Shown: one piece after another, positions 103-16,538 of the stretch
Numbering within the stretch: the first letter of the stretch is position 1
How the letters are laid out: every line of letters begins with the position of its first letter
Source of the DNA: a virus
Virus record (IMG/VR): IMGVR_UViG_3300046501_000355
Span: 1 to 22,188 of that record
Reading direction: 5' to 3' (one strand)
DNA: 22,188 bases
Made by a program: the position numbers and the translations under genes
The notes under the pieces: generated by a model
What the model saw: the letters and a program-made list of their open reading frames with translations, nothing else
What the model was told of the DNA's origin: nothing
Databases searched by the model: none

Positions 103-471
103 TTACCCCAGTGGTTTAAGCTCGCAAATTGCTTTTATAAAACCTTGGCCATAATGCAAATTATCCAACACTTGAGAAACAATGTAGGATTTACCCTTCC
201 ATATAATCTCATCCGCTTTGGTTTTTGCATCACCTGAAGTCAAAGCAAACTGTGTGTGAATATTGAGTGCACCTTTGATCAAGGTACCATCGGCACGGCG
301 ATCCATCTTGAGGCCGTTATTTGTAGTAACGACACCAGAAAAAGGAGTGCTGGTAGTCGTTCCTTGTGGCCGTCCATTATTTCCTACGATGACTTCTGTA
401 CGCTTGCAAATAATGCCCGTGTCCATAAAGTCTGGATCTAGGAGAACATCAGAAACATCAAGTTGAGCCAC
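103..471 (-). CDS. Putative head-tail connector / neck protein, GTG start
   Basis: This 122-residue protein begins at a GTG codon (471-469), preceded by a strong AAGGAG site seven bases away; no nearby ATG has comparable support. The start lies 14 bases inside the end of the upstream gene, typical of coupled phage structural genes. The sequence is beta-rich with no membrane segment (for example FSGVVTTNNGLKMDRR and KGKSYIVSQVLDN), which fits a small head-closure or stopper protein. I do not recognise a named family; the assignment rests on position between the gp10-like protein and the next tail gene, in a region that normally encodes head-tail joining proteins. Confidence 0.6.
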   Translation of the reverse strand: MAQLDVSDVLLDPDFMDTGIICKRTEVIVGNNGRPQGTTTSTPFSGVVTTNNGLKMDRRADGTLIKGALNIHTQFALTSGDAKTKADEIIWKGKSYIVSQVLDNLHYGQGFIKAICELKPLG

Positions 472-1018
472 GTTTAATCTCCTTGTCCTTTTTCATGATG
501 ATGTAAGTTACCGATTTTCTGAGCTCGCCCGTATCGATCAACGGCCGAACAAGACCAGACTCTGCTGGACCAGTTTCAAGCTGTTTAAGATACTGTTTAG
601 CCCCCTTACGTCCACGCCGTGCTCGAGCACGGATTGTGGCCAAAGATAGAGGAGCAAATTCACCATTGACGAAATACATGCGAACAGAGTTCATTGCAGT
701 TGTCCCTGCGGACGCAAGCAACTTCATCATTTTTGGGCTATTACCCTCTAAAGCCGCATCAACCGCTTTAACTAGCTTATCGCCCACCTCGTCTTGCACT
801 TCTTCAACACCAGGAACTAGAAATGGCCGTTCAGGAATATTCATGGCTGGTGAACCGTTTTCCTGAAGGTAGCCAATTTGCGCATTGGTTAGGCCGTCAC
901 CATCGGTTCGAGCCTCACCATGAGGAATACCAACTAATACATCCATTTGCGACAATTCAGCGAAAGCTTGAAAGATATCTGCAAGACCTTTACCAGAAGA
1001 TTTAACACCACTACTCAT
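458..1018 (-). CDS. Putative neck / tail-completion protein (gp10-like or virion-morphogenesis-like)
   Basis: The chosen start (ATG 1018-1016) overlaps the stop of the DUF4054 gene as ATGA, giving 186 residues; an in-frame extension to 1090 exists but has less support. The central segment NIPERPFL, preceded by GYLQENGSP, resembles the 'IP.RPFL' core of HK97 gp10-like and Mu virion-morphogenesis proteins, which act at the head-tail junction. The C-terminal half has basic helices (RARARRGRKGAKQYLKQLE) and the motif LIDTGELRKSVTY; an 'L-DTG-L--S' segment is common near the C-terminus of this group. Family assignment is by motif recognition and position only. Confidence 0.65.
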   Translation of the reverse strand: MSSGVKSSGKGLADIFQAFAELSQMDVLVGIPHGEARTDGDGLTNAQIGYLQENGSPAMNIPERPFLVPGVEEVQDEVGDKLVKAVDAALEGNSPKMMKLLASAGTTAMNSVRMYFVNGEFAPLSLATIRARARRGRKGAKQYLKQLETGPAESGLVRPLIDTGELRKSVTYIIMKKDKEIKRGST

Positions 1019-1401
1019 AGCTGAATGCCTCCAGCGCCTGCCATCATCATTAACTGATAAAACTGAACGCCCCATGTGGTTTGGTTCCAATGGCCCGCAT
1101 CTGCAATAAGTACACCTGAAACATCCATAGACTTTGAAACACCATCAACTGATTTAGATGTCTCATTACCTACGATCTTTCCGGCATCACCGCCAATGCT
1201 TGCAGCATTCATCCCACGCCGATAAAGCGTAAGATAATGAGCAATAAACAATGTCAAACCGTAATCAAGCGTATCCTCCCAACGTTCTGGGCGAAGTAAC
1301 TTTTTTCCAAGGTTTAAATAGAAATTAAACTGAAATGATGGATATTGCGTTGTATCAGCAAAAGCCGGCATTTCTTCACGAAAAGAGGATTCACTGATCA
1401 T
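1015..1401 (-). CDS. DUF4054-like head-tail connector protein
   Basis: This 128-residue protein has the layout of DUF4054 phage connectors: an N-terminal FREEMPAFADTTQYPSFQFNFYL, then a helix WEDTLDYGLTLFIAHYLTLYRRG and a glycine-rich tail. In related phages this protein adds to the portal vertex after packaging. It follows the coiled-coil protein gene by three bases and overlaps the next gene by four (ATGA), so all are translated from one transcript. The start is ATG 1401-1399 with AGGA ten bases upstream. Confidence 0.75.
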   Translation of the reverse strand: MISESSFREEMPAFADTTQYPSFQFNFYLNLGKKLLRPERWEDTLDYGLTLFIAHYLTLYRRGMNAASIGGDAGKIVGNETSKSVDGVSKSMDVSGVLIADAGHWNQTTWGVQFYQLMMMAGAGGIQL

Positions 1402-1404
1402 GGT

Positions 1405-1890
1405 TTAGGTTTCCTTTGGCACGTCTTTTTCTTTTGCTGGGGCTGCTTTGGCTGCATCGGCTTTTAACTTGGCGATTTCTTTATCGCGGTCATTAATCAC
1501 CTTCTGAGCTTGCTCAAGAGCAGAGGTTGACGCTTCTACTTGGGTTTGAAGCTCTTTAGCAGACTGGATTTTAAGATCACTGAGCTCTTTATCCTTCGCC
1601 TTCATTTCTTCGCCATGTTTGAAGATTTGCTTCTCCGCTACATCAAGCTGAATTTGCATTGTTGCAAGCTCACTATCTTTTTGCTTAATGATCTCTTCAA
1701 GTTCACTAGCATAGGCCGAATGTGCTGGGATCTCTTGAGAATGAGCCGCCACAAACCAGTGCTCAGCAATCTCTTTCTCTACTTCCTGAAGTCCAGCTTG
1801 TAACACAACTGTTTTAGCTTCCCCTTGGTCATCACGACCAAGGTTCACTGTTAGCTGTTTGCTTAAAAGAATTTGTACTAACTCAGACAT
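1405..1890 (-). CDS. Coiled-coil phage structural protein (STY1053-like)
   Basis: The 161-residue product has a short globular N-terminus (about 1-50), including the phrase EIAEHWFVAAHS that I associate with STY1053-family phage proteins. A long charged helix follows (about residues 60-145) with heptad-like hydrophobics, then an Ala/Lys/Pro-rich tail. It lies between the major capsid and connector genes. AAGGA sits six bases before the ATG. Its precise role in head assembly is not known; the coiled coil is seen directly, while the family name is from recollection. Confidence 0.7.
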   Translation of the reverse strand: MSELVQILLSKQLTVNLGRDDQGEAKTVVLQAGLQEVEKEIAEHWFVAAHSQEIPAHSAYASELEEIIKQKDSELATMQIQLDVAEKQIFKHGEEMKAKDKELSDLKIQSAKELQTQVEASTSALEQAQKVINDRDKEIAKLKADAAKAAPAKEKDVPKET

Positions 1891-1899
1891 AACAATTCC

Positions 1900-2925
1900 T
1901 TATAGACCATCAGCGTAATAAGCAGTTTCAGGGTAAACCCATTCAACAACACCTAAACGGCCAAAGTAGGTTGTGATTTGACGAATACCGCGATATTCAA
2001 TTGGTGTGCGTTGTAAAGGAACAAGTGGGAAGCGCACACGATCCTCAGCTTGTGTATAGGTCAGCATACGGTCAGTACCACCAACACCACGTTTTACACA
2101 CCACTTAGAAGGCTGAATATCAAGTGGTCGGCCATTCACAGAGTTACTTAAGCTGTTGAGCTTCAAGAACTCAAGAATAGAGATATTCCCGGCTTCGCTG
2201 ACAACTCGCGATGTTAAGAAGCTAAATTGCACAGGTGGTAATAAAAGCTTATCTGGACAGACAGCAAAACCAGACGCTACCCATGCATTATTTAAGATGA
2301 GATTTACATCATCTAAGATTTCCTGAGGTGCGGCTAATTTCCAGTTTTTATTAACGTTTGTTGCACCCACTTTTGATGAGTTTAAAAGACCTTCCACACC
2401 AAGAGTGTCATCACCGATATATACCTGCTCATCAATATCCATTTGATATTTCAGGTTCATACCTTTGTATTTTTGGCTATCTACAGGACGACCAATAGCG
2501 CGTGCAGATTCCAGTTCAGGAATGGTATAGCCAATTTCCATACCCCAAAGGCTTAATGGCTGTGCTGTCTTACCAATATCCAAAGCAATACCGGCAATCG
2601 CATCTGAATTTTTACCAATCCATGATTTGCCTGTAGGAGAAGGACCACCAGCTGCAGCAAATGTTGAGTTAGTGAATGACGATACTTCATCAGCAATTGA
2701 TACATCTGAGCGCAAATCAATATCACGGCCCCATGTAATGTTTGCTAATGGGTCGTGCAATGTTTGGTCTAGGCGTTCCAATTCACCTAAAAGAAATGCA
2801 CCAGTACTATCGATCGTACGTGCATCGAAAGTATGCATAGTGCCTGTATCGCGTGTACGTGCACGGATCGGTTGCCCCATTGCTACGGCTTGATCCATGG
2901 TCGAAGCTAAGAGTAATTTACTCAT
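1900..2925 (-). CDS. Major capsid protein, DUF2184 family
   Basis: At 341 residues this has the size of a DUF2184 capsid protein. Recognisable segments are the N-terminal MHTFDARTIDSTGAFLLGELERLD, the central SLWGMEIGYTIPELESA, the YIGDDTLGVEGLLN segment and the C-terminal PLVPLQRTPIEYRG followed by VEWVYPETAYY. Proteins of this family adopt the HK97 capsid fold and form the procapsid shell. Its place directly after the cement protein and downstream of the DUF2213 protease-scaffold supports this. GGAG lies about eleven bases before the ATG. Confidence 0.88.
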   Translation of the reverse strand: MSKLLLASTMDQAVAMGQPIRARTRDTGTMHTFDARTIDSTGAFLLGELERLDQTLHDPLANITWGRDIDLRSDVSIADEVSSFTNSTFAAAGGPSPTGKSWIGKNSDAIAGIALDIGKTAQPLSLWGMEIGYTIPELESARAIGRPVDSQKYKGMNLKYQMDIDEQVYIGDDTLGVEGLLNSSKVGATNVNKNWKLAAPQEILDDVNLILNNAWVASGFAVCPDKLLLPPVQFSFLTSRVVSEAGNISILEFLKLNSLSNSVNGRPLDIQPSKWCVKRGVGGTDRMLTYTQAEDRVRFPLVPLQRTPIEYRGIRQITTYFGRLGVVEWVYPETAYYADGL

Positions 2926-2940
2926 GTTTTTATATTCTCC

Positions 2941-2960
2941 AGGCGTAAAAAAAGACGCCT
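2941..2960 (-). other. Hairpin between cement and major capsid genes
   Basis: AGGCGT (2941-2946) and ACGCCT (2955-2960) form a six-base stem around an eight-base loop of mostly A (T on the transcribed strand). It lies in the 64-base gap between the cement gene stop and the capsid start. The T-run is in the loop and no U-tract follows the stem, so it is not a standard terminator. It could be an mRNA stability or processing element. Confidence 0.35.
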
Positions 2961-2989
2961 ATAGCGCCGTGATTTACGTCAAAAATAAA

Positions 2990-3466
2990 TTAGATGTTGT
3001 AAGAGATTTCTACATTGCCTTGTGCATCTGCATCATGCATAAACATGGCATTTTTGATTTCGATTGTATTTGCACCATCAGCAATTGCTTCAATCCCACC
3101 GATCGGCTTTAGATCCGAGCCTGTGGCAACACGCACATAAACTTTACCAGCCGTTTTTGCTGACCCCACATTACATTTAACAGTCATGTAACCACGGCGC
3201 ATAACATCATGGATAATGCCTGACTGAGGAACTGCAGCGCCGATACCATTTAACGCAGATTGAGTTGGATATGAGCGAACAATCAAACCATATACATCTG
3301 TATCTGCAGCTTCTAAAGGAACAAAACCTAAAGCTGTCAATTTTCCAAAAATACCAAACGCCCCAAAATTACCTTTGGCAATATGTGCCTCAACTGTAGA
3401 GTGCGCTTTTCGTGAAATATCACCCGGAATGCCTGAAGGCATACGATATAAAAATGAATTACCCAT
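2990..3466 (-). CDS. Capsid cement / decoration protein (Gp24-like)
   Basis: The 158-residue protein is glycine-rich and beta-rich, opening MGNSFLYRMPSGIPGDISR, a start typical of the structural cement (decoration) proteins encoded just before DUF2184 capsid proteins. Such proteins bind the outside of the expanded capsid. The start ATG lies one base after the stop of the protease gene, indicating translational coupling. The C-terminal half (KVYVRVATGSDLKPIGGIEA) looks like a small beta barrel. No membrane segment is present. Confidence 0.75.
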   Translation of the reverse strand: MGNSFLYRMPSGIPGDISRKAHSTVEAHIAKGNFGAFGIFGKLTALGFVPLEAADTDVYGLIVRSYPTQSALNGIGAAVPQSGIIHDVMRRGYMTVKCNVGSAKTAGKVYVRVATGSDLKPIGGIEAIADGANTIEIKNAMFMHDADAQGNVEISYNI

Positions 3467-3467
3467 T

Positions 3468-4784
3468 TTATTGCTTTCCTTTGTTTGACCAGTATTCGCG
3501 GTTAATTTTGTTCATTTCTGCCGGTGTAATTGGTGCACGGCCAAAATCACGGGTAGAAATACCAGAACGTACACCTGCAGAATTGTTTTGATGCTTGATG
3601 AGTTCAGATGCTCCAATAAATGCGGCATCAATGGTGTGAACGGGCATTGTGTCAAAATTAGGATTAGCCCCGACAAATGGCGCTAACGCTTTTTGACCGT
3701 CTGCTGTAGCGTGAGCTTGCTTTAATACATTTCGCTTTGTGTTTAAAACGGCTGGACCATTGTTTGCACTGTCGAAAGTAGGCATCTTAAAGCCTGGTAA
3801 TAAAACTTCAGCTCGCGATAAAACCTCTTGAAGGGAGTCACCGGTATGATTCTGAATACCTTGTTCTGATAATTTCTGAGCTTGTTCAGCCTCCAAAACA
3901 TCATCTTCGGTTTCTTTACGTTTACCGTCGCCTTCTTCGTCGTCATCATCTTCGGTTTCTGTTTCAGAATCCTTGGTTTTTTTCTTTTCCAATTTTGACA
4001 ATCGCTTATCAATTGTTTGGATTGTTTTGAGAGCTTTCAAGAGTTCTCGATTTAGAGCTGCATCATTGGTTTTACCGCCGCCTTCGTCGTCATCATCTTC
4101 ATCTTCTGTCTCGGATTCCTCCTCATCAGTGCTTTTGGCCTTGTCTAAAGCCTCATCAATTGTACGTTTAGCTTTGCGTAAGCTATCCAACCAGCCTTTA
4201 TTAGGTTTAGGCATAAAACTATCTCCGATTTTACAACGCGACCCACAACGCCCCTTTTTAACAAGGGCAATGTGATTTCCAAAAATATTTGTTTGAATCC
4301 CTTTACCTACGCTAATTTCCGTGTAATCAGCGTCATACCCTAGAGAGATTTCAACCTTTCCCTTCATCACAGCATCAATCATGTCTTTATCTGTAATGAG
4401 CAGATCCGCCACCATACAATCGGAATCTTCATCTGTACCCCGGCGAACATCGTGTGCTGTGCCGTTTGAAAGTTGCTTCCAATTTTCTGGTGTTACCCAA
4501 TCTTTAGGATGATCATCCGTGACCGGTTTACCTTCAAAACTTGCGATCGTACGTGGGTCAAATAGAACATCTTCACCACGTTCAATAATGATTAGACCTG
4601 AGTTGTCAGCAGTAACTGGCACCTCACCATCGCCGTATAGCAATTTACCTATCCGAGCTAATGGCACATCTCGACAAAGCAAATAACCTTCTGGGGTAGT
4701 TTCCCGTGTCCGCCCAATTTGGCCAGTAGTGTAGAAATTGGATCTATCTACAGTGGCCTTTGATTTAGGTTTCTTTTTAAACAT
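3468..4784 (-). CDS. Prohead protease-scaffold fusion (DUF2213)
   Basis: This 438-residue protein combines two functions. Residues about 1-190 match DUF2213: SFEGKPVTDDHP (His92), VEISLGYDAD (Ser147) and NHIALVKKGR (His171) are candidate catalytic residues of a herpesvirus-type Ser-His-His protease. Residues about 200-300 hold two acidic blocks (EEESETEDEDDDDEGGGK and SETETEDDDDEEGDGK) on either side of a basic coiled-coil-like helix, as expected of a scaffold removed during maturation. The C-terminal part (about 310-438) would contact the capsid protein. AAGG lies just upstream of the ATG and a terminator precedes the gene. The protease call is by family motif; cleavage has not been shown. 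Confidence 0.8.
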   Translation of the reverse strand: MFKKKPKSKATVDRSNFYTTGQIGRTRETTPEGYLLCRDVPLARIGKLLYGDGEVPVTADNSGLIIIERGEDVLFDPRTIASFEGKPVTDDHPKDWVTPENWKQLSNGTAHDVRRGTDEDSDCMVADLLITDKDMIDAVMKGKVEISLGYDADYTEISVGKGIQTNIFGNHIALVKKGRCGSRCKIGDSFMPKPNKGWLDSLRKAKRTIDEALDKAKSTDEEESETEDEDDDDEGGGKTNDAALNRELLKALKTIQTIDKRLSKLEKKKTKDSETETEDDDDEEGDGKRKETEDDVLEAEQAQKLSEQGIQNHTGDSLQEVLSRAEVLLPGFKMPTFDSANNGPAVLNTKRNVLKQAHATADGQKALAPFVGANPNFDTMPVHTIDAAFIGASELIKHQNNSAGVRSGISTRDFGRAPITPAEMNKINREYWSNKGKQ

Positions 4785-4806
4785 GGTTCACCTTTTTTCA
4801 GGCATT

Positions 4807-4828
4807 AAAAAACCACCCGAAGGTGGCT
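4807..4828 (-). terminator. Intrinsic terminator with UUCG loop after MuF-like gene
   Basis: Read on the minus strand, CCACC-TTCG-GGTGG forms a five-base stem closed by a UUCG tetraloop and is followed by TTTTTT. It touches the stop of the MuF-like gene and precedes the protease-scaffold gene. It lies within the late operon, so it must be read through for capsid genes to be expressed, or it is partial. Confidence 0.75.
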
Positions 4829-5559
4829 TAAAGTTCTGGAATAACTGGTTCTGGATAACACCGGCAATTGGGTAAACACCCTGCATGACCAGTAAGTCGA
4901 TCTAACGTTGGAGGCTTATTCCAATTTACAAACTTCCCACTCATTCCCTCATGACTTGGCCTTACATCGCCGTCTTCACTGGTTCGCCAGATATACCCCT
5001 CAGAACCTAGATTCTCTGCTCTAGCTTGTGTGAATACGCATGAAGCACGACTAACCTCAGTACGTGCAATTGTATTTGCTCTGGATCGAGTCACACGCCC
5101 CGTAGCCATGATCAATCCGGCTATCTCACTTGAACGGTTGCCCTCAATTAGTGATCGAGTAGATAGGTCATGAATACGCTGTGCTGCATCAAGTGGTAAA
5201 GACTTAATAAGTCGCACTTGATCATTTAAGAGTTGTTGATATACAGCACCGGTATCAGTATTGCGGATCTGCTCTCTAACTCCACGCGAAAGATCATTTG
5301 CATAGATAAGCCAAGTTTTCTCATCACGTAGTGCAACATCGGTAATAATTCGACCTGCTGCATTTTGTGCCCAATGGTGGAGAGTATTTGCATAATCATT
5401 TAATGAGGCCGCCATTAAAGGATATGTGCTCGGATCATTTACATCAAAGCCCTTAACAATGGTATCCACATAACCAGCAATCTTTCTAAGCTGCTGGCTG
5501 TAACGTATCTCTGTCTTTCTCGCTAGATTCGGCGTTATCCGACTTATTTGGTTCTTCAT
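4828..5559 (-). CDS. MuF / SPP1 gp7-like minor head protein
   Basis: The product has the C-terminal signature of the MuF family: ARTEVSRA (about 165-172), WRTSEDGDVRPSHEG (about 191-205) and GCLPNCRCYPEP (about 227-238), the last with closely spaced cysteines. MuF proteins are minor head proteins that go into the capsid and act early in head assembly or ejection. The frame is open to 5616, but ATG 5559 has AAGG eight bases upstream and gives a normal N-terminus (MKNQISRITPNLARK), so I use it (243 residues). The first 74 bases overlap the end of the portal gene in another frame. Confidence 0.82.
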   Translation of the reverse strand: MKNQISRITPNLARKTEIRYSQQLRKIAGYVDTIVKGFDVNDPSTYPLMAASLNDYANTLHHWAQNAAGRIITDVALRDEKTWLIYANDLSRGVREQIRNTDTGAVYQQLLNDQVRLIKSLPLDAAQRIHDLSTRSLIEGNRSSEIAGLIMATGRVTRSRANTIARTEVSRASCVFTQARAENLGSEGYIWRTSEDGDVRPSHEGMSGKFVNWNKPPTLDRLTGHAGCLPNCRCYPEPVIPEL

Positions 5560-6898
5560 CGTCATAACCTTCATTTGGCGGTGGTGGATCATCTTCAGCC
5601 TGGTTAATTTCCTCATCAGTTATATGTGAGAAAATACCAGTAGATTCACTAGACTGGCGCAATTCTTTTAACGCCGTTTGACGTGAGATGATTCCAGATT
5701 CTTCAACCTTCGTAACTGCCTCAGCCACTTTTGCAGCAATACTTGCCTTTTTCTCGTCATCAATTTGCCACAATGAAGCAAAATCAAACTTAAATGAACT
5801 TGGTAAAGGCTTACCTAATTTTGACCGAGAAACAACTTCAAGCAACTTATGCAACGGCGTACGCATACGCCCTTCCTGTTGTTGGTTGATATTGTCGTAA
5901 TAGTTGGAAAGGTCAGATTCACCAGTAGCATTAAAACCTGCAGGCGATTGGCCAAATAATCGAATTAATGGAATACCTAAAGCTCCAGCAATTTGCTGGC
6001 CGAATTGCATCAGAATACTATCAAGCCCAGTAAAACTATATTGGTGTGCCTCATAAGTATCTTCAGCATCCATCAAGGTCATGCCTTCATTAGACTGCCA
6101 TAGTCGGATTTGGTTAATTTGCTTAACAAGAGCCTCATATAATGGTCCTCCTGCAGCAATGAGGCTACGCAACCCTTTAACTTTATAAGTCCTCAAATGA
6201 GCCTTATAGATAAGCTGACCAGCACCTAAAGTTGCACTATCGAAAATAGTTAAACGATCCTCAAGACGCTCAATGACTGATTGGCCCCATAAGTTTTCCG
6301 CAATAGCTTGCCAATATGGAAGTTTTACCCCATCCATTCGCATTACACGGGAATAATGAATTCGTTGATTACAAAGCCCCACTGAATCCGTAATGACATC
6401 GTAATACTTAGGCATCCCATAATCAGGGCCATATTCAGTAACAAGATCTTGAAGGTCTGGTAGAACCATCCAACGATCAAGAACCAATAAGCCTTTAAAC
6501 TGGTCTTTACCAATCGTATTGATATTTAGCGGTGTAGAAACATTCTGACCATCAATTAACATTACGGCGATAGCACCGCCGTATAGTCTGGACCAACGAA
6601 TTGTTTCATTGATCTTATCCCATACTTGTAAGCGGTCTAGTTCCTGGTTGATTGATTCAACATGTTCTGGATCTTCCATGCCACGGATATTGATCCCCTC
6701 ACGGGTCATATCATCGGCAACCACATCTACAGCTTGGCCAACCACCCAGCTAGAACGATACATAGCCTCAAGCTTTAAGCGGTCGCGGCTAGTATAGTTA
6801 AAACCATAAGTTGATTGATCATGCTGGTTCCCTGAACCCAACCCAACGCGAGCGGCAAAGTTCTGGAATGAATCTTTTGTAAATTTAATTAAGCCCAT
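5486..6898 (-). CDS. Portal protein, DUF1073 family
   Basis: The 470-residue protein carries DUF1073 portal features: GFNYTSRDRLKLEAMYRSSWVVGQAVD near the N-terminus, WSRLYGGAIAVMLIDGQ, and GIPLIRLFGQSPAGFNATGESDLSNYYDNI in the C-terminal half. Portal proteins form the dodecameric ring through which DNA is packaged and to which terminase docks. The gene directly follows terminase large, the usual order. The acidic, Pro-rich tail (DDPPPPNEGYDDEE) overlaps the start of the MuF-like gene. Pfam and NCBI labels for this family can mention the anti-CBASS protein Acb1; position and length make a portal function far more likely here. Confidence 0.88.
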   Translation of the reverse strand: MGLIKFTKDSFQNFAARVGLGSGNQHDQSTYGFNYTSRDRLKLEAMYRSSWVVGQAVDVVADDMTREGINIRGMEDPEHVESINQELDRLQVWDKINETIRWSRLYGGAIAVMLIDGQNVSTPLNINTIGKDQFKGLLVLDRWMVLPDLQDLVTEYGPDYGMPKYYDVITDSVGLCNQRIHYSRVMRMDGVKLPYWQAIAENLWGQSVIERLEDRLTIFDSATLGAGQLIYKAHLRTYKVKGLRSLIAAGGPLYEALVKQINQIRLWQSNEGMTLMDAEDTYEAHQYSFTGLDSILMQFGQQIAGALGIPLIRLFGQSPAGFNATGESDLSNYYDNINQQQEGRMRTPLHKLLEVVSRSKLGKPLPSSFKFDFASLWQIDDEKKASIAAKVAEAVTKVEESGIISRQTALKELRQSSESTGIFSHITDEEINQAEDDPPPPNEGYDDEEPNKSDNAESSEKDRDTLQPAA

Positions 6899-6908
6899 AA
6901 CTTTCTCT

Positions 6909-8567
6909 TTATAGCTTGCCCCAAATACTGAGCTCGCCTATCTGTGGGTTAAAACAAATCATGACGCTATCTGCCCGGTTAGGTGACGCCGTGCCATCAG
7001 GCTGTTTATTGACAAGGATTTTCCCAACACCATTTTTTGTATATGTTGGTTGTGATAACTCAGTAGTGAGCAATGCCAATTCCTTAGCATCTATATCTTT
7101 AGTAGATAGTGAAATGATCATGTCTGGATCATAATCACGGCCCTCAAGCGCTCTAAAAGTTTCCTGGAAGCGCAAACGCAATGACCACCAAGACTGGGCT
7201 TTAAGATTGGCGAAAAAGTCTTTATTAAGACGCTTCTCGACCATTTCCCCCTCAGGGTCATAAACTGAACCAGAACCTCGGAAGGATTCGACATTTACTT
7301 CGGGTAATCCCAGTTCACGGCGCTTTTCATTAATTACCCTGGCATCACCACGGCACCCAGCACCAAGACCATCGGCATCGTAAAAAAGCGTATCTATAGA
7401 TTGATCAAAGCAAAGATCCATAGCTTTTTGCGTGGTTCCAAAGATGTCATCACCTTTACCTGACCATGTGGCCAAGTACTTCATGACAACACCATGGCGA
7501 GATGCAAAAGAGTTTTTATCCTTGCCCTCATCGGCAACGTCTAAGCCGCCGATACGATCACCAGTAGGCTCAATTAGAAGCTTTTTGTGCGCATCTAATG
7601 ACGCTTGAATCCAAGCACTAGGAATCAATACACCTTCCACAGATGCTGCATAGTTAATATCAACTTCTTGGGCTAAAACGACATCGTCCAATGTTGCAAG
7701 CTGCTTTTCATACCATGGGTAAATAACTTTGCCGTTATAAGTAACAGTCCAGTTCTTATCCGGGTTAGCTCGCCAAGGCATAGTAAAGACGGCATAACGG
7801 CCGCTGAATCTATCCTGGTGAAATCGGTCACCGATACCGTTTGGTGTAGATCCTTTAATGTGGACGTTCGTGTTTTGCGAGATAGCCGCATCTACAGCTT
7901 CTTGCCGCTCTACGAATGCCCATTCATCCAAAAAGTACATAGTGGTACGACCACCACGGCCGATATTGTCACCAGCTTCACCCGTGATTGTTGCGCCGTT
8001 ATCAGGGTTAATGATGCGCATGTAGTTATCATGCACTTTCTCGACAAAGCCCTTTGGCTTTAACCATTGGGGCATTTTGCTGAACATGTCGCGGAATTTG
8101 TGGAATAGGGTTTTAGGATCACCCTTCTTATCAACTAGTTCCTCTTTACGGCTACCAACTCCCCCCGCAAAACCTTCTACAAATAACCATCTATGCAAAA
8201 AGAAACCCAGCACAACGTAGCTCATGCCTTCGTCACGCGACTTTTCAATCAAGCCGTGTGTTTGTGTGCTCTCCCGCTCAATCAACCAATCTACAAGCTC
8301 GACTTGCTTAGGTCGCAACACAAAGGGAATATTTGCGGGCAATCCAAATGACATACCGCGCGGGTCGTATGTCCAGATCCAATTGTTAAACCAATGTGCC
8401 GGATCTGTGCGGCACTTATATAACTCTGCCTGAATGCTAAGTTCGTTTTGCTCAATGGCTGCCTTGTAGTAATAACGCCGTGTCATCTCAGTCATTACTT
8501 CAGGCAAGCGTACGTTAATAGTCCACTCTTTAATTAAAGGGGCTATTTCATCTAGTGCGTATGTCAT
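6909..8567 (-). CDS. Terminase large subunit
   Basis: At 552 residues this is a full-length packaging motor. The ATPase part shows a Walker-A-like loop EKSRDEGMSY (about 108-117, a deviating form without GKT), a Walker B segment MYFLDEW (about 210-216) and a coupling motif GSTPNG (about 239-244). The nuclease part has GGLDVADEGKD (Asp343), YDADGLGAG (Asp397/399) and NRADSVM (Asp533), fitting an RNase H-fold metal site. It overlaps the small-subunit gene by four bases. The protein would cut concatemeric DNA and pump it into the procapsid through the portal. Confidence 0.9.
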   Translation of the reverse strand: MTYALDEIAPLIKEWTINVRLPEVMTEMTRRYYYKAAIEQNELSIQAELYKCRTDPAHWFNNWIWTYDPRGMSFGLPANIPFVLRPKQVELVDWLIERESTQTHGLIEKSRDEGMSYVVLGFFLHRWLFVEGFAGGVGSRKEELVDKKGDPKTLFHKFRDMFSKMPQWLKPKGFVEKVHDNYMRIINPDNGATITGEAGDNIGRGGRTTMYFLDEWAFVERQEAVDAAISQNTNVHIKGSTPNGIGDRFHQDRFSGRYAVFTMPWRANPDKNWTVTYNGKVIYPWYEKQLATLDDVVLAQEVDINYAASVEGVLIPSAWIQASLDAHKKLLIEPTGDRIGGLDVADEGKDKNSFASRHGVVMKYLATWSGKGDDIFGTTQKAMDLCFDQSIDTLFYDADGLGAGCRGDARVINEKRRELGLPEVNVESFRGSGSVYDPEGEMVEKRLNKDFFANLKAQSWWSLRLRFQETFRALEGRDYDPDMIISLSTKDIDAKELALLTTELSQPTYTKNGVGKILVNKQPDGTASPNRADSVMICFNPQIGELSIWGKL

Positions 8568-9070
8568 AGCTTTCCATTAATCACTAAGCGCGAAAGCTCA
8601 GCCGGTGTGAGTTTTGCAAGCTCCTCAGGTTTATATGCTGGCGTAGGTGGCAATTGGGTATTTTCAGTTTTAATCGCCCCGCCACCAGCTCCGGTAATTT
8701 CTAATCGTTTCTCGTAAAAACCTTTCACAATCTTTTGCATTTGGTCCACGATCTTGATGGTCATGGTCACGTTATTTTTTTTGGCGAAAAGTAAGTCACT
8801 CAAGATTTTTAACTGAACAATGTCATTAGCCCCGCTAATGTTGTGAATCGGCTGTTTGAGATATTCCTCTCGCGTAGCCTCAAAAACTTCCTTGAACTCT
8901 TTCCTTAAGTCACGCCCGGCAACCTTGGTCGGGTCGTATGCTTCCACTTGCTGCGGCGACACAATAATGTTGAAAGTTTCCTTGATGGCCTTAACAACTT
9001 CTGTGGGTGTCATGAATTGCGCAAGTGACCGAACTATAAAGAGTTGCTCGGCTTTTTTTAGCTTCGCCAT
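8564..9070 (-). CDS. Terminase small subunit, DUF2280 family
   Basis: The 168-residue protein matches DUF2280: EQLFIVRSLAQFMTPTEVVKAIKETF, then VSPQQVEAYDPTKVAGRDLRKEFKEVFEATR. The N-terminal helices resemble a DNA-binding helix-turn-helix, the middle is helical for oligomerisation, and the C-terminal Pro-rich part followed by TPAELSRLVINGKL may contact the large subunit. It is placed immediately before, and overlapping, the large-subunit gene. The small subunit recognises the packaging site, which is often in or near its own gene; no such site is identified here. Confidence 0.85.
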   Translation of the reverse strand: MAKLKKAEQLFIVRSLAQFMTPTEVVKAIKETFNIIVSPQQVEAYDPTKVAGRDLRKEFKEVFEATREEYLKQPIHNISGANDIVQLKILSDLLFAKKNNVTMTIKIVDQMQKIVKGFYEKRLEITGAGGGAIKTENTQLPPTPAYKPEELAKLTPAELSRLVINGKL

Positions 9071-9108
9071 AATTCAAAATCCATCAAGGCTCATCAAGGA
9101 AACAAGTC

Positions 9109-9132
9109 AAAAAAAATGAGCCAAAAGGCTCA
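9109..9132 (-). terminator. Intrinsic terminator after metallopeptidase gene
   Basis: On the minus strand TGAGCC-TTTT-GGCTCA is a perfect six-base stem followed by a run of eight T. The TGA stop codon of the metallopeptidase gene is the first part of the stem. It separates that gene from the terminase small-subunit gene, so packaging genes downstream would need read-through or their own promoter. Confidence 0.82.
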
Positions 9133-9771
9133 ACTAATTAGGCAAGTTCCACAGCACTTGGAAATATTTACATCAGATGCAAACGGCGCTTGCTTCGCCA
9201 CTTCAATAAGTCGCTTCACGTTCTCGTCTGCTCCCCATCTTTTTACTACGCCCACAAACTCTTCAACGTCATGGCCAGCCAAATAATGTTTTGGTAAACC
9301 CGTCATATCGCTATAAAGCGGCTCGCCGTCTTCGTCACGCTCAACGCCGATGTGATAAAGCTCATGTTCGATTAAAGCGCAAAAGTCTCGGTCCGTAGCT
9401 TGCTCGCAAAAACTTGCGTCAATAGTTATTAGATAAACCGGCACATAACCAAACCAATCACGCATTTGTTGTTCCTGGCGAGCCTTGCGCCAGCCACCAA
9501 CGTTAAACATGACTTTTTCACATTGGCCAGAAACCATTTGTTTTTTTACAGTGCAAGCTTGTGATGCCCACGCAAATGCAATAAAGCCCTCATTCTCATG
9601 TATGAGCTCAGCAATATGGTCATGGTCTGGATTGTAGAGCTCACCATCAATGGTTAAATAATTTTTAATAACCCAATCCATTAGATCTGGTGCCGGTGTT
9701 AAGCGTGTAGCCTCATCATCATCCGCTTGATCAATAAAATCAGTCGGTGGAAATGGTCTTACTTGTTCCAT
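9130..9771 (-). CDS. Putative phage metallopeptidase (HExxH)
   Basis: The 213-residue protein has the zinc-protease motif HELYH (about 136-140) in ALIEHELYHIG and a downstream HDVEEF (about 167-172) that could supply a third ligand. This is the pattern of the putative phage metallopeptidases found next to terminase genes. I use ATG 9771, which has GAGAG about seven bases upstream, rather than the TTG two codons before. Three cysteines (CCGTC) lie close to the C-terminus. Substrate and role are unknown. The start overlaps the upstream nuclease-like gene by 32 bases. Confidence 0.7.
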   Translation of the reverse strand: MEQVRPFPPTDFIDQADDDEATRLTPAPDLMDWVIKNYLTIDGELYNPDHDHIAELIHENEGFIAFAWASQACTVKKQMVSGQCEKVMFNVGGWRKARQEQQMRDWFGYVPVYLITIDASFCEQATDRDFCALIEHELYHIGVERDEDGEPLYSDMTGLPKHYLAGHDVEEFVGVVKRWGADENVKRLIEVAKQAPFASDVNISKCCGTCLIS

Positions 9772-10174
9772 CTTCAAGTCTCTCTAATTCGCCTTTAATC
9801 CAATCAATGACATATCCGGATAAAATAGAATCTGGGTGAAATCGTTCAATCTTGAAACCCATGTCTTCTGCTTTATCGTATCGATCAAGGCTCCAAGCTT
9901 TATTAGCCAACTTGCCACCGCGTCCACCAGACCAAGGCCCGCCCTCAATCTCAATCAATATGCGTAATTTCACAATATGGAAATCAAAGCGCCAATGCTT
10001 GGTATGAATGGGTTGAAACTTGCTTTCAAAGCCAATAGCCAAATCTGTTAATTCTTCTTTTAGGGTTGCTTCAGCTTCTAAATAATTTTGCTTGGCTTTC
10101 GGCAACGGCGTACTTTTTGATTTCGATTTCTGTGGGCGCTTTCCTGTGAGCTTGAAATATTTACTGGCTTCCAT
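9740..10174 (-). CDS. Putative PD-(D/E)XK (VSR/DUF559-like) nuclease
   Basis: The 144-residue protein has a Lys/Pro-rich N-terminus, then WRFDFHIVKLRILIEIEGGPW and, after a Gly/Lys-rich loop, YDKAEDMGFKIERFHPDSI. An Asp in a strand (RFDF) followed by an E-x-E strand (IEIEGG) fits the catalytic core of VSR/DUF559-type nucleases. Such proteins near phage terminase genes may process DNA during packaging or recombination, but this is inference. AGGG lies about eight bases before the ATG. It overlaps its neighbours at both ends. Confidence 0.55.
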   Translation of the reverse strand: MEASKYFKLTGKRPQKSKSKSTPLPKAKQNYLEAEATLKEELTDLAIGFESKFQPIHTKHWRFDFHIVKLRILIEIEGGPWSGGRGGKLANKAWSLDRYDKAEDMGFKIERFHPDSILSGYVIDWIKGELERLEDGTSKTISTD

Positions 10175-10442: not shown

Positions 10443-10661
10443 CTAACTTTTAGATGTGCGAAGAATCTCTAATACTTTGTTTGTTAGATCGTGAAGATCA
10501 ACGCCGTGAGGATGCCAAAACTTATAAAACACATTGTCGCGATTATAAATTTGAAGGTAATAAGTTGATGTGTAGCTTGGGTCAATTTCTGAAGCTTTAA
10601 ATATCTTCACATCTTTCTCTATTTCTTGCCCATCCAATTCACCGCCAACACAAAGCGTCAT
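10443..10661 (-). CDS. Hypothetical small protein, first late gene
   Basis: I take ATG 10661 as start (72 residues, MTLCVGGELDGQEIEKD...). The frame extends to 10703, but that ATG has no ribosome-binding sequence and lies in the terminator of the late leader. The sequence is mixed alpha/beta with YYLQIYNRDNVFYKFWHP in the middle and a C-terminal helix. I recognise no family. It is the first gene after the late promoter-terminator unit and is followed by another terminator. The ATG itself has only a weak Shine-Dalgarno sequence and a 20-base inverted repeat just upstream. Confidence 0.55.
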   Translation of the reverse strand: MTLCVGGELDGQEIEKDVKIFKASEIDPSYTSTYYLQIYNRDNVFYKFWHPHGVDLHDLTNKVLEILRTSKS

Positions 10662-10703: not shown

Positions 10704-10733
10704 TAAAAAAGCCCACCGATTTGGCGAGCTTTT
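10704..10733 (-). terminator. Late-leader terminator (tR'-like)
   Basis: On the minus strand GCTCGCC-AAATC-GGTGGGC forms a seven-base stem (two G-U pairs) followed by TTTTTT. It lies about 40-70 bases downstream of the predicted late start point and before any late gene, the position of lambda tR', which the Q-modified polymerase ignores. Confidence 0.75.
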
Positions 10734-10767
10734 GAATTCATTCTGGCGATTACTTTACATTTCGCCC

Positions 10768-10809
10768 ATTTTAGAAATCTTTATACTCAAGTGTATACCC
10801 AACTGTCAA
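10768..10809 (-). promoter_or_regulatory. Late promoter (pR'-like) with pause-like element
   Basis: On the minus strand a perfect -35 TTGACA (10809-10804) is followed after 18 bases by TATAAA (10785-10780). Six bases later lies TAAAAT (10773-10768), a second -10-like hexamer at about +1 to +6. In lambdoid late promoters such an element holds sigma and pauses polymerase so that Q can load. The TGA stop of the Q-like gene is inside the -35 hexamer. A Q-binding site would lie in the spacer but cannot be recognised by eye. Confidence 0.72.
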
Positions 10810-11558
10810 GCACAAGTTTCTTGATTATCAGGAAGTTCGTATTGAAACGATCTACGAATCCTACCTCTAATCTCATTTTCCCATTGTGCAACAATAGATT
10901 CTCCAAAAAGTTCATACTTCTGGTAGCTCTTGATATATGCGGTTTTAGTTGCTGTAATTTTCGCAATATTCATTTTCTCATTTAACGTGTAAGGGCGCTT
11001 ACCTGTGCCATCACACTTATTGCAAAATACTGCCCCGTTAGGGTTGCCTTTTGAATTGTAAGTTTCAAGCTTACCAAGCCCCTGACAAGACCCACACATA
11101 GCCTTAACAAATAAATGGCTACGTAAAACTATCTCAGCTATCCCTTTTGCAAGATTAGTTAAATCACCTTGAGCATTAGTAGGCTTAAATTTTTTCTTTA
11201 TCATTTCTTTGTGGATTTTGACTGCCAATTTGTTTCGAGCTCTAAAAAAATCACCTGACTTAATCTCACCACGAACAAACTCTACCTTTCCGGGAATATC
11301 CTCAATACGGCGCTCTGTCTCAAAGTTAAAATCAAACTTACTAACAAATGTCTCAGTTTGCTTTTGAGCTGGGGTAATGATTGCTATGCGCTCAAAATCT
11401 ACCTTTTCAACAAGCAAAGTAGCCCATAATCTAGCATCTGGTGATAGAAGCCCTAGTTCACCTAAAACAATATCTTTAGAAATCTTTTTACCTTCTGCCT
11501 TACCTTGAGCGATAGCAAGGCGAAGTAACTCAATAAAATCAAACTTTTCAACTAACAT
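10806..11558 (-). CDS. Q-like late antiterminator with zinc finger
   Basis: The 250-residue protein has a DnaJ-like zinc-binding region, CGSCQGLG (Cys155/158) and FCNKCDGTGK (Cys179/182), followed by a helical segment (YTLNEKMNIAKITATKTAYIKSYQKYELF) and a basic C-terminus. Lambda Q shows the same arrangement of CxxCxGxG pairs followed by a C-terminal helix. Q proteins bind DNA at the late promoter, join paused RNA polymerase and make it ignore terminators. The location supports this strongly: a strong promoter overlaps its stop codon and a terminator lies just beyond. AGGAAGG lies five bases before the ATG. Confidence 0.75.
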   Translation of the reverse strand: MLVEKFDFIELLRLAIAQGKAEGKKISKDIVLGELGLLSPDARLWATLLVEKVDFERIAIITPAQKQTETFVSKFDFNFETERRIEDIPGKVEFVRGEIKSGDFFRARNKLAVKIHKEMIKKKFKPTNAQGDLTNLAKGIAEIVLRSHLFVKAMCGSCQGLGKLETYNSKGNPNGAVFCNKCDGTGKRPYTLNEKMNIAKITATKTAYIKSYQKYELFGESIVAQWENEIRGRIRRSFQYELPDNQETCA

Positions 11559-15820: not shown

Positions 15821-16084
15821 GTGACCAAAGCAGAGAAATTATTAGAACGATTTTTCACTAATCCTCCACCTAAAAACTTTAAGTGGAATGATTTCGTTAC
15901 AATGATGGAACGCTTAGGTTTCACTCTAGTATTTAATGGAAGAGGTAGCTCCCATTGCATATTCTACAAAGATAATCCAAAGATCGTACTTAACTTCTTA
16001 AAACCTCATCCAAATGATGAGCTAAAAGTTATTTATGTCAAGAAGGCAAGAGAGTTCCTTAAAGAGCATGGGATTGGAGTATAA
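15821..16084 (+). CDS. hicA: HicA toxin (mRNA interferase)
   Basis: The 87-residue protein has the HicA dsRNA-binding-like fold signatures: KNFKWNDFVTMMERLGF, the catalytic GSSH (42-45, His45) and KPHPNDELKVIYVKKAREFL in the C-terminal half. HicA cleaves mRNA, including tmRNA, and stops growth unless bound by HicB. Compared with compact HicA proteins it is slightly long. It starts with GTG, preceded by AAGGA seven bases away; the weak start codon may keep toxin levels low. The order toxin then antitoxin is the normal one for hicAB. Confidence 0.85.
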   Translation: MTKAEKLLERFFTNPPPKNFKWNDFVTMMERLGFTLVFNGRGSSHCIFYKDNPKIVLNFLKPHPNDELKVIYVKKAREFLKEHGIGV

Positions 16085-16085
16085 A

Positions 16086-16538
16086 ATGAAAGAAACTTTT
16101 AAATACAAGGGCTTTGAAGGCTCCATGGAATTTAGTTCAGAAGATGAATGCTTGGTAGGTGAGGTCTTATTTATACGCTCCAAGATTATCTATATTGGTG
16201 AAACTTATAGTGAGTTAAAACAATCTTTTGAAGAGGCTGTTGATGCTTATATTCTCCATTGTGAAGCAAACAATATTAAGCCAGAGAAGCCCTGTAGTGG
16301 AACCTTTAATGTAAGAGTTGGCACTCATCTTCATCAATCGGCTATTAAGCTTGCATATCAAAATAACATCTCGCTTAATGAAGTAGTGATACGAGCTTTA
16401 GAGCACTTCCTAGCAACTGACCATACAGAAAGTAGCAATTTTACAGTTAATTTAAAAAATAGCCCAGTCAATATTATGAATATCTCTCAAAAAAATATAC
16501 TTTTACCTAAAAAACGTAGTTCAGAATATTTTAATTAA
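16086..16538 (+). CDS. hicB: HicB antitoxin
   Basis: The start ATG 16086 lies one base after the hicA stop with TTGGAG seven bases upstream, giving 150 residues. The N-terminal domain (about 1-65; KYKGFEGSMEFSSEDECLVGEVLFI, then YIGETYSELKQSFEEAVDAYI) is the partly degenerate RNase H-like fold that binds HicA. Residues about 72-110 (GTFNVRVGTHLHQSAIKLAYQNNISLNEVVIRALEHFL) form a ribbon-helix-helix DNA-binding domain. A polar C-terminal extension of about 40 residues is AT-rich and unlike either domain. It neutralises HicA and should repress the operon at the palindrome upstream. Confidence 0.85.
   Translation: MKETFKYKGFEGSMEFSSEDECLVGEVLFIRSKIIYIGETYSELKQSFEEAVDAYILHCEANNIKPEKPCSGTFNVRVGTHLHQSAIKLAYQNNISLNEVVIRALEHFLATDHTESSNFTVNLKNSPVNIMNISQKNILLPKKRSSEYFN

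Follow-up and report, generated by a model that had tools for sequence, protein, structure and literature searches.

A compact, probable late promoter unit and a predicted lambda-Q-fold protein in Vieuvirus-like Acinetobacter phages

Q proteins fall into three listed Pfam families, PF03589, PF06530 and PF06323 (PMC7171158). Lambda Q requires a -35-like element beside its pause element; phage 21 Q uses a binding element between -35 and -10 together with a -10-like pause element, and a -35-like element is reportedly unnecessary (PMC6606751). At the AlpA-controlled PA0807 promoter, the terminator begins 26 bp from the start site (PMC7969949). An antiterminator has been annotated in other temperate A. 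baumannii siphophages (PMC7354433), and our literature search found no study of the late unit that accompanies phrog_6172, the family considered here.

We analysed virus record IMGVR_UViG_3300046501_000355, a stretch of 22,188 bp (the window) whose relatives are temperate phages of Acinetobacter, several of them classed as Vieuvirus. At a probability of roughly 0.9, we consider that a short unit in this window is the late-gene switch of a Vieuvirus-like phage, of the lambda pR'-tR' type, with a 250-amino-acid (250-aa) protein as its antiterminator. The parts of the unit, their conservation, the predicted lambda-Q fold and a covariation between helix and spacer are established by sequence or comparison.

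Layout of the unit and its gene neighbourhood

The features on which the argument depends are as follows.

14618-14421, minus strand: Cro-like gene, start of the gene run on this strand
13713-12559, minus strand: O-like gene
12080-11619, minus strand: resolvase-like gene, between the O-like gene and the 250-aa gene
10806..11558, minus strand: Q-like antiterminator gene, 250 aa (phrog_6172), with a predicted lambda-Q fold, zinc hairpin and helix-turn-helix
11013..11096, minus strand: codons 155-182, four-cysteine zinc hairpin (CxxC...CxxC), from the alignment of homologs
10920..10952, minus strand: codons 203-213, last part of the helix-turn-helix turn and first part of the predicted recognition helix, covarying with spacer class
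10809-10804, minus strand: -35 element TTGACA, holding the stop codon of the Q-like gene
10803-10786, minus strand: 18-nt spacer GTTGGGTATACACTTGAG, predicted Q-binding element of class A, core GGTATAC at 10799-10793
10785-10780, minus strand: -10 element TATAAA
10773-10768, minus strand: -10-like pause element TAAAAT, predicted +1..+6, followed by GGG
10766-10745, minus strand: leader RNA hairpin GGCGA...TCGCC, +8..+29, by RNA folding
10733-10705, minus strand: intrinsic terminator tR', a stem at 10733-10707 plus U tract, by RNA folding
10443..10661, minus strand: first gene past tR' (phrog_1523 family), in a slot of highly variable content among relatives
103..9777, minus strand: co-oriented late genes, predicted targets of the switch

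The minus strand reads Cro-like, O-like, resolvase-like and 250-aa genes, then head genes. The late genes encode a metallopeptidase, DUF2280, a 552-aa product, portal, Mu F-like, DUF2213, cement and major capsid proteins; the 552-aa gene sits in the large-terminase position, an assignment made by position and sequence, with no Pfam match. On the plus strand, 15821-16538 holds a HicA-like toxin and HicB-like antitoxin pair (PF07927, E 3.3e-11; PF05534, E 3.3e-13).

An earlier note on this DNA had described a Q-like gene whose stop codon lies in a perfect TTGACA, with TATAAA 18 bases on, a second -10-like TAAAAT at about +1 to +6 and a terminator some 40-70 bases downstream, and our analysis reproduced each element. 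The TGA (10808-10806) lies within the -35 hexamer, the spacer is 18 nt long, and TAAAAT occupies +1..+6 with the predicted start site at 10773, taking the -10 as -12..-7. Only 6 nt (GATTTC) separate the -10 from TAAAAT. RNA folding gave two hairpins, a strong one with its U tract at 10733-10707 (+41..+67) and a weaker one at 10766-10745; z for the 83-nt fold was -2.75.

A simple consensus scanner listed neither the promoter at 10809-10780 nor the terminator at 10733-10707; it missed the TTGACA/TATAAA promoter because it demands T as the last -10 base. A dedicated scan required a consensus -35 and a near-consensus -10, with a -10-like element following after 5-7 nt and a terminator no more than 80 nt away. 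On the two strands of the window it found exactly one promoter, pause and terminator unit, where 0.003 would be expected by chance (first-order Markov model of the window, 300 simulated sequences). As judged from sequence comparison, conservation of the unit in many phages excludes a chance origin.

A sequence-diverged protein with a predicted lambda-Q fold

The 250-aa protein matches phrog_6172 ('unknown function') over residues 1-250 (profile E 3.2e-148), and its 14 GenBank phage relatives are all labelled hypothetical or uncharacterised. We found no Pfam match to PF03589, PF06530 or PF06323 at E <= 1, although lambda Q itself matches PF03589 at 6e-58, and NCBIfam and Pfam searches returned no antiterminator match. 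Sequence similarity to lambda Q is marginal and restricted to the zinc hairpin, a region that also has weak matches to 'anti-termination protein Q-like' PHROGs and whose four cysteines are invariant among 35 homologs. A profile search of PDB sequences yielded only zinc-hairpin look-alikes (DnaJ, UvrA), with lambda Q at E 0.99; homology therefore rests on fold and context.

An AlphaFold model built from 35 homologs has moderate confidence (pLDDT 73.5, pTM 0.64), poor at residues 1-20 and 240-250, and contains a helix-turn-helix formed by helices 192-199 and 205-239 after the zinc hairpin. In a Foldseek search of the PDB, lambda Q filled the top eight rows, with a best E of 3.6e-4 at prob 1.00, and the next row had E 0.5. 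VIA gave Z 11.3 against lambda Q in the engaged complex 7UBN (rmsd 4.3, 182 residues, 14% identity) and Z 9.4 against DNA-site-bound lambda Q (7UBL), compared with 5.3 for the best unrelated row. A BFVD fold search produced no match at E <= 0.001, its best row (E 0.02) being annotated 'Antitermination protein Q'; 21Q was absent among the structural matches listed for the model, which excludes nothing. From sequence and model together, we infer an antiterminator of lambda-Q fold that has a Q-binding element of its own, and file the protein as a sequence-diverged branch of the lambda-Q fold, within Q-type late antitermination. The idea of a distinct antitermination family, raised in the earlier note, is thus borne out at the level of sequence and gives way at the level of fold.

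A second 'unknown' family, phrog_25592, comprises distant homologs about 21-26% identical to the window protein. Its model (pLDDT 81.0) matched lambda Q best (Z 13.2), the next distinct structures being AlpA at Z 8.2 and 8.0. Behind the gene lie TTGCAT/TTGCTT, 17 nt, TATATT/TACATT, YATACT followed by GG, and a terminator. L225, which has a profile link to phrog_14965 and phrog_127, likewise carries its stop codon inside TTGACA. In L220, a similar series of promoter, -10-like element, hairpin and terminator (TTGAAA-N17-TATATT-TCTTTC-TAAGATGG) was seen by eye about 850 bases past a phrog_14965 gene; adjacency of gene and unit is therefore not obligatory. The hypothetical phage family TIGR02642 (phage_xxxx) of NCBIfam is matched, below its cut-off, by both lambda Q (E 1.4e-5) and L222 (E 3.7e-5), and may be one more Q family that has gone unrecognised.

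Conservation, covariation and the RNA behind the promoter

The pattern TATAANNATTTCTARAATGGGCG occurs in at least 120 stretches of viral contigs, and a looser unit pattern is present in five Acinetobacter genomes. In nearly all cases with upstream DNA, the unit adjoins the 3' end of a homolog of the 250-aa gene, L155 being an exception in which another open reading frame (ORF) apparently intervenes. In all, more than 100 phage contigs, besides Acinetobacter genomes, carry the unit directly behind a Q-like gene. No unit lies beside the gene in a few homologs (L217, L229/L230, L221, L246). L229 and L230 have the Q-like gene and the leader, with a -35 and -10 that look degenerate, possibly a decayed or differently regulated copy; the reading frame of L217 is interrupted by one in-frame TAG. 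In L244/L245 the Q-like frame is broken early, yet the late unit is intact.

Among homologs, the pause hexamer appears as TAAAAT, TAGAAT, TATAAT, TATAGT, CATACT, TATACT or CATAGT; its second base is always A, its sixth always T, and GG nearly always follows. A mechanical scan found a terminator in 70 of 77 distinct units, compared with 0.5% of shuffled sequences, and several of the seven failing units show a hairpin and U tract by eye. The terminators found comprise 59 different stem-loops; a terminator kept through such turnover of sequence speaks for selection on termination as such.

We compared helix and spacer across 73 distinct protein/spacer combinations. Class A spacers (18 nt, core GGTATAC) account for 44 of these, class B (17 nt, ACAGAAC) for 26 and class C (17 nt, GACTTAAC) for two, leaving one singleton spacer. 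Residue 210 is K in every class A protein, E in every class B and Y in both of class C, and residue 206 is T (M once), S and A in the three classes; together they split the classes without overlap. Residues 207, 209 and 211 are also strongly associated with class, and over all 73 combinations the stretch 206-211, where the predicted recognition helix begins, changes along with it. Mean class association was 0.58 at residues 201-210 and at most 0.31 elsewhere, save for 0.41 over the C-terminal ten residues, which are encoded right beside the promoter.

A tree of residues 1-152 requires eight or more changes of spacer class. Strongly supported branches carry four independent class-A switches; residues 207 and 210 change identically in each, although four such switches are too few for sign-test significance. 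Between a class C protein (L088) and a class B protein (L171), identity is 97% for residues 1-152, 85% for 153-199 and 89% for 214-240, yet falls to 36% for 203-213. Because helix and spacer are physically near each other, linkage contributes to the association, and spacer class is followed too by some residues, 225 for example, that lie between helix and DNA; linkage alone would not be expected to leave the helix-to-promoter segment so little changed. These sequence patterns support recognition of the spacer by the predicted recognition helix. In phrog_25592, three helix types likewise go with three spacer types, the distant member L226 included: IDRKAYLRTY pairs with GTCCCAAAAT, IARNNYIKIY with GGTACAAAAATA and [IV]ARQVYLR[ST]Y with GGGTGCARATTT.

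The spacer is the expected place of a Q-binding element, and covariation of the helix with it therefore supports Q-type antitermination, more strongly than any other evidence here. That reading, already put forward in the earlier note, gains further support from the lambda-Q fold match and from the joint conservation of promoter, pause element and terminator after the gene.

Two features are additional to the earlier note: a hairpin conserved in the leader, and a slot past the terminator whose cargo is hypervariable. In all 28 distinct complete leaders of the window protein's family, GGGCG/GGCG near +7..+12 can pair with a CGCC-like arm near +25..+30, and the mean z over 39 distinct leaders of both families was -2.6. 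The 5' arm is invariant in the window protein's family, so no strict compensatory change occurs, and sigma contacts may instead be the reason for keeping the leader GGG. The leaders of lambda, SfV and YeP3 fold similarly. Folding gave no significant hairpin in mEp237, Klebsiella phage 5, ES2, Eho59, L225 or L226, which does not support a leader hairpin common to all Q units. Alternative pairing between leader and terminator, considered as attenuation, was dropped since by eye it is unconserved across terminator types. The hairpin might block backtracking, protect the RNA 5' end or have no role.

In relatives, the slot behind tR' is occupied by more than 30 ORF groups with no relation to one another, among them small uncharacterised proteins, membrane proteins, a Dam-like methylase (L072) and a hydrolase-like ORF (L084). 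A PADLOC search with eight cargo proteins from the slot gave no match. We predict that the slot is an accessory-gene site under late control. Stx phages carry toxin genes under late control, and the unit would comparably mark where the related A. baumannii prophages place accessory genes.

Proposed mechanism, alternatives and comparison with known systems

Transcription start, pausing, loading and read-through are proposed by analogy, with the lambda and phage 21 Q systems as the model (PMC6606751, PMC7171158). Sigma70-RNA polymerase would initiate at about 10773 with no need for Q and would pause as sigma region 2 holds TAAAAT (+1..+6), a pause that the lambda precedent places near +16/+17. 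Lacking the 250-aa protein, polymerase would resume and terminate at about +41..+67, releasing an RNA of roughly 68 nt. Once expressed from the distal end of the early operon, the protein would bind the -35/-10 spacer through its helix-turn-helix, join the paused polymerase and move along with it, and polymerase carrying the protein would read through tR' and the terminators beyond it to reach the head genes.

The 250-aa protein could instead be a spacer-binding activator or repressor of initiation, with the terminator merely insulating early from late genes. Covariation implies spacer recognition and says nothing about the step that follows. However, a promoter already so near consensus has no need of an activator, antiterminators provide the closest folds (lambda Q, and in phrog_25592 also AlpA), and the -10-like element and terminator are retained downstream despite free replacement of the terminator sequence; we consider this explanation improbable. 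Less probable still is that the unit is a small-RNA gene whose product is the structured RNA of about 68 nt, with no part in late transcription. Conservation of the leader hairpin (mean z -2.6 over 39 distinct leaders) would fit such a gene, as would the RNA of about 68 nt that termination without Q should yield in any case. An Rfam search, however, matched no family. Moreover, leader loop and terminator sequences are unconserved, spacer, helix and pause element are coupled, and every late gene is downstream and co-oriented. That TAAAAT is the -10 of an overlapping promoter rather than a pause element is very unlikely, and we rejected this second promoter: the consensus scan lists exactly TATACA-N18-TAAAAT, yet classes B and C lack TATACA while keeping TAAAAT and the upstream TATAA.

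Within the late switch, with the 250-aa protein as antiterminator, one joint reading is offered tentatively, at somewhat worse than even odds: about six residues at the helix start set which spacer is read, at least three such pairs have been switched several times, and the leader hairpin is a further cis element. The hairpin would then stand right behind the pause, for example as a ratchet against backtracking of Q-bound polymerase to it. If such a specificity code holds, related prophages in one cell would be insulated from each other's late switch. The natural protein/spacer pairs are ready material on how Q proteins read DNA. The analysis also proposes a function for the 'unknown' families phrog_6172, phrog_25592 and probably phrog_14965, and names a late switch for a common group of Acinetobacter baumannii prophages.

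Among described systems, phage 21 Q (PF06530) shares the binding element between -35 and -10, predicted here, and the -10-like pause element; the window protein has no PF06530 match, and the TGAGCA direct repeat of phage 21 is absent. Pseudomonas aeruginosa AlpA (PMC7969949, PMC9371919; 7XYA, 7XYB) is likewise an antiterminator whose site falls between -35 and -10, with a terminator near the start, but is a cellular cell-death regulator and does not serve phage late genes. It is a structural neighbour of the phrog_25592 model (Z 8.2) and absent among the matches listed for the phrog_6172 model.

The packing into about 100 bp, emphasized in the earlier note, is real but not unusual. By eye, six other phages of the lambda-Q family, mEp237, SfV, Klebsiella phage 5, YeP3, ES2 and Erwinia Eho59, are equally compact, with pause element and terminator within about 60-70 nt soon after Q, and AlpA's PA0807 is likewise compact; we therefore rejected compactness as a novelty. 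The Q proteins of these six phages, unlike the window protein, are recognisably lambda-Q-like (31-44% identity).

Lambda Q/pR'/tR' (PF03589; 4MO1, 7UBJ-7UBN) differs in several respects. The window protein has no PF03589 match and an extra N-terminal part (residues 1-100), its unit is without the -35-like TTGAC between -10 and pause element, and its terminator lies at +41..+67, compared with near +190 in lambda. The two systems are nevertheless alike in zinc hairpin and helix-turn-helix fold (predicted here), in the gene order replication, Q, pR', tR' and late genes, in the spacer as binding site (predicted here) with a terminator downstream, and in a -10-like element near +1..+6 followed by GGG, which reads AACGATGGG in lambda and TAAAATGGG in the window.
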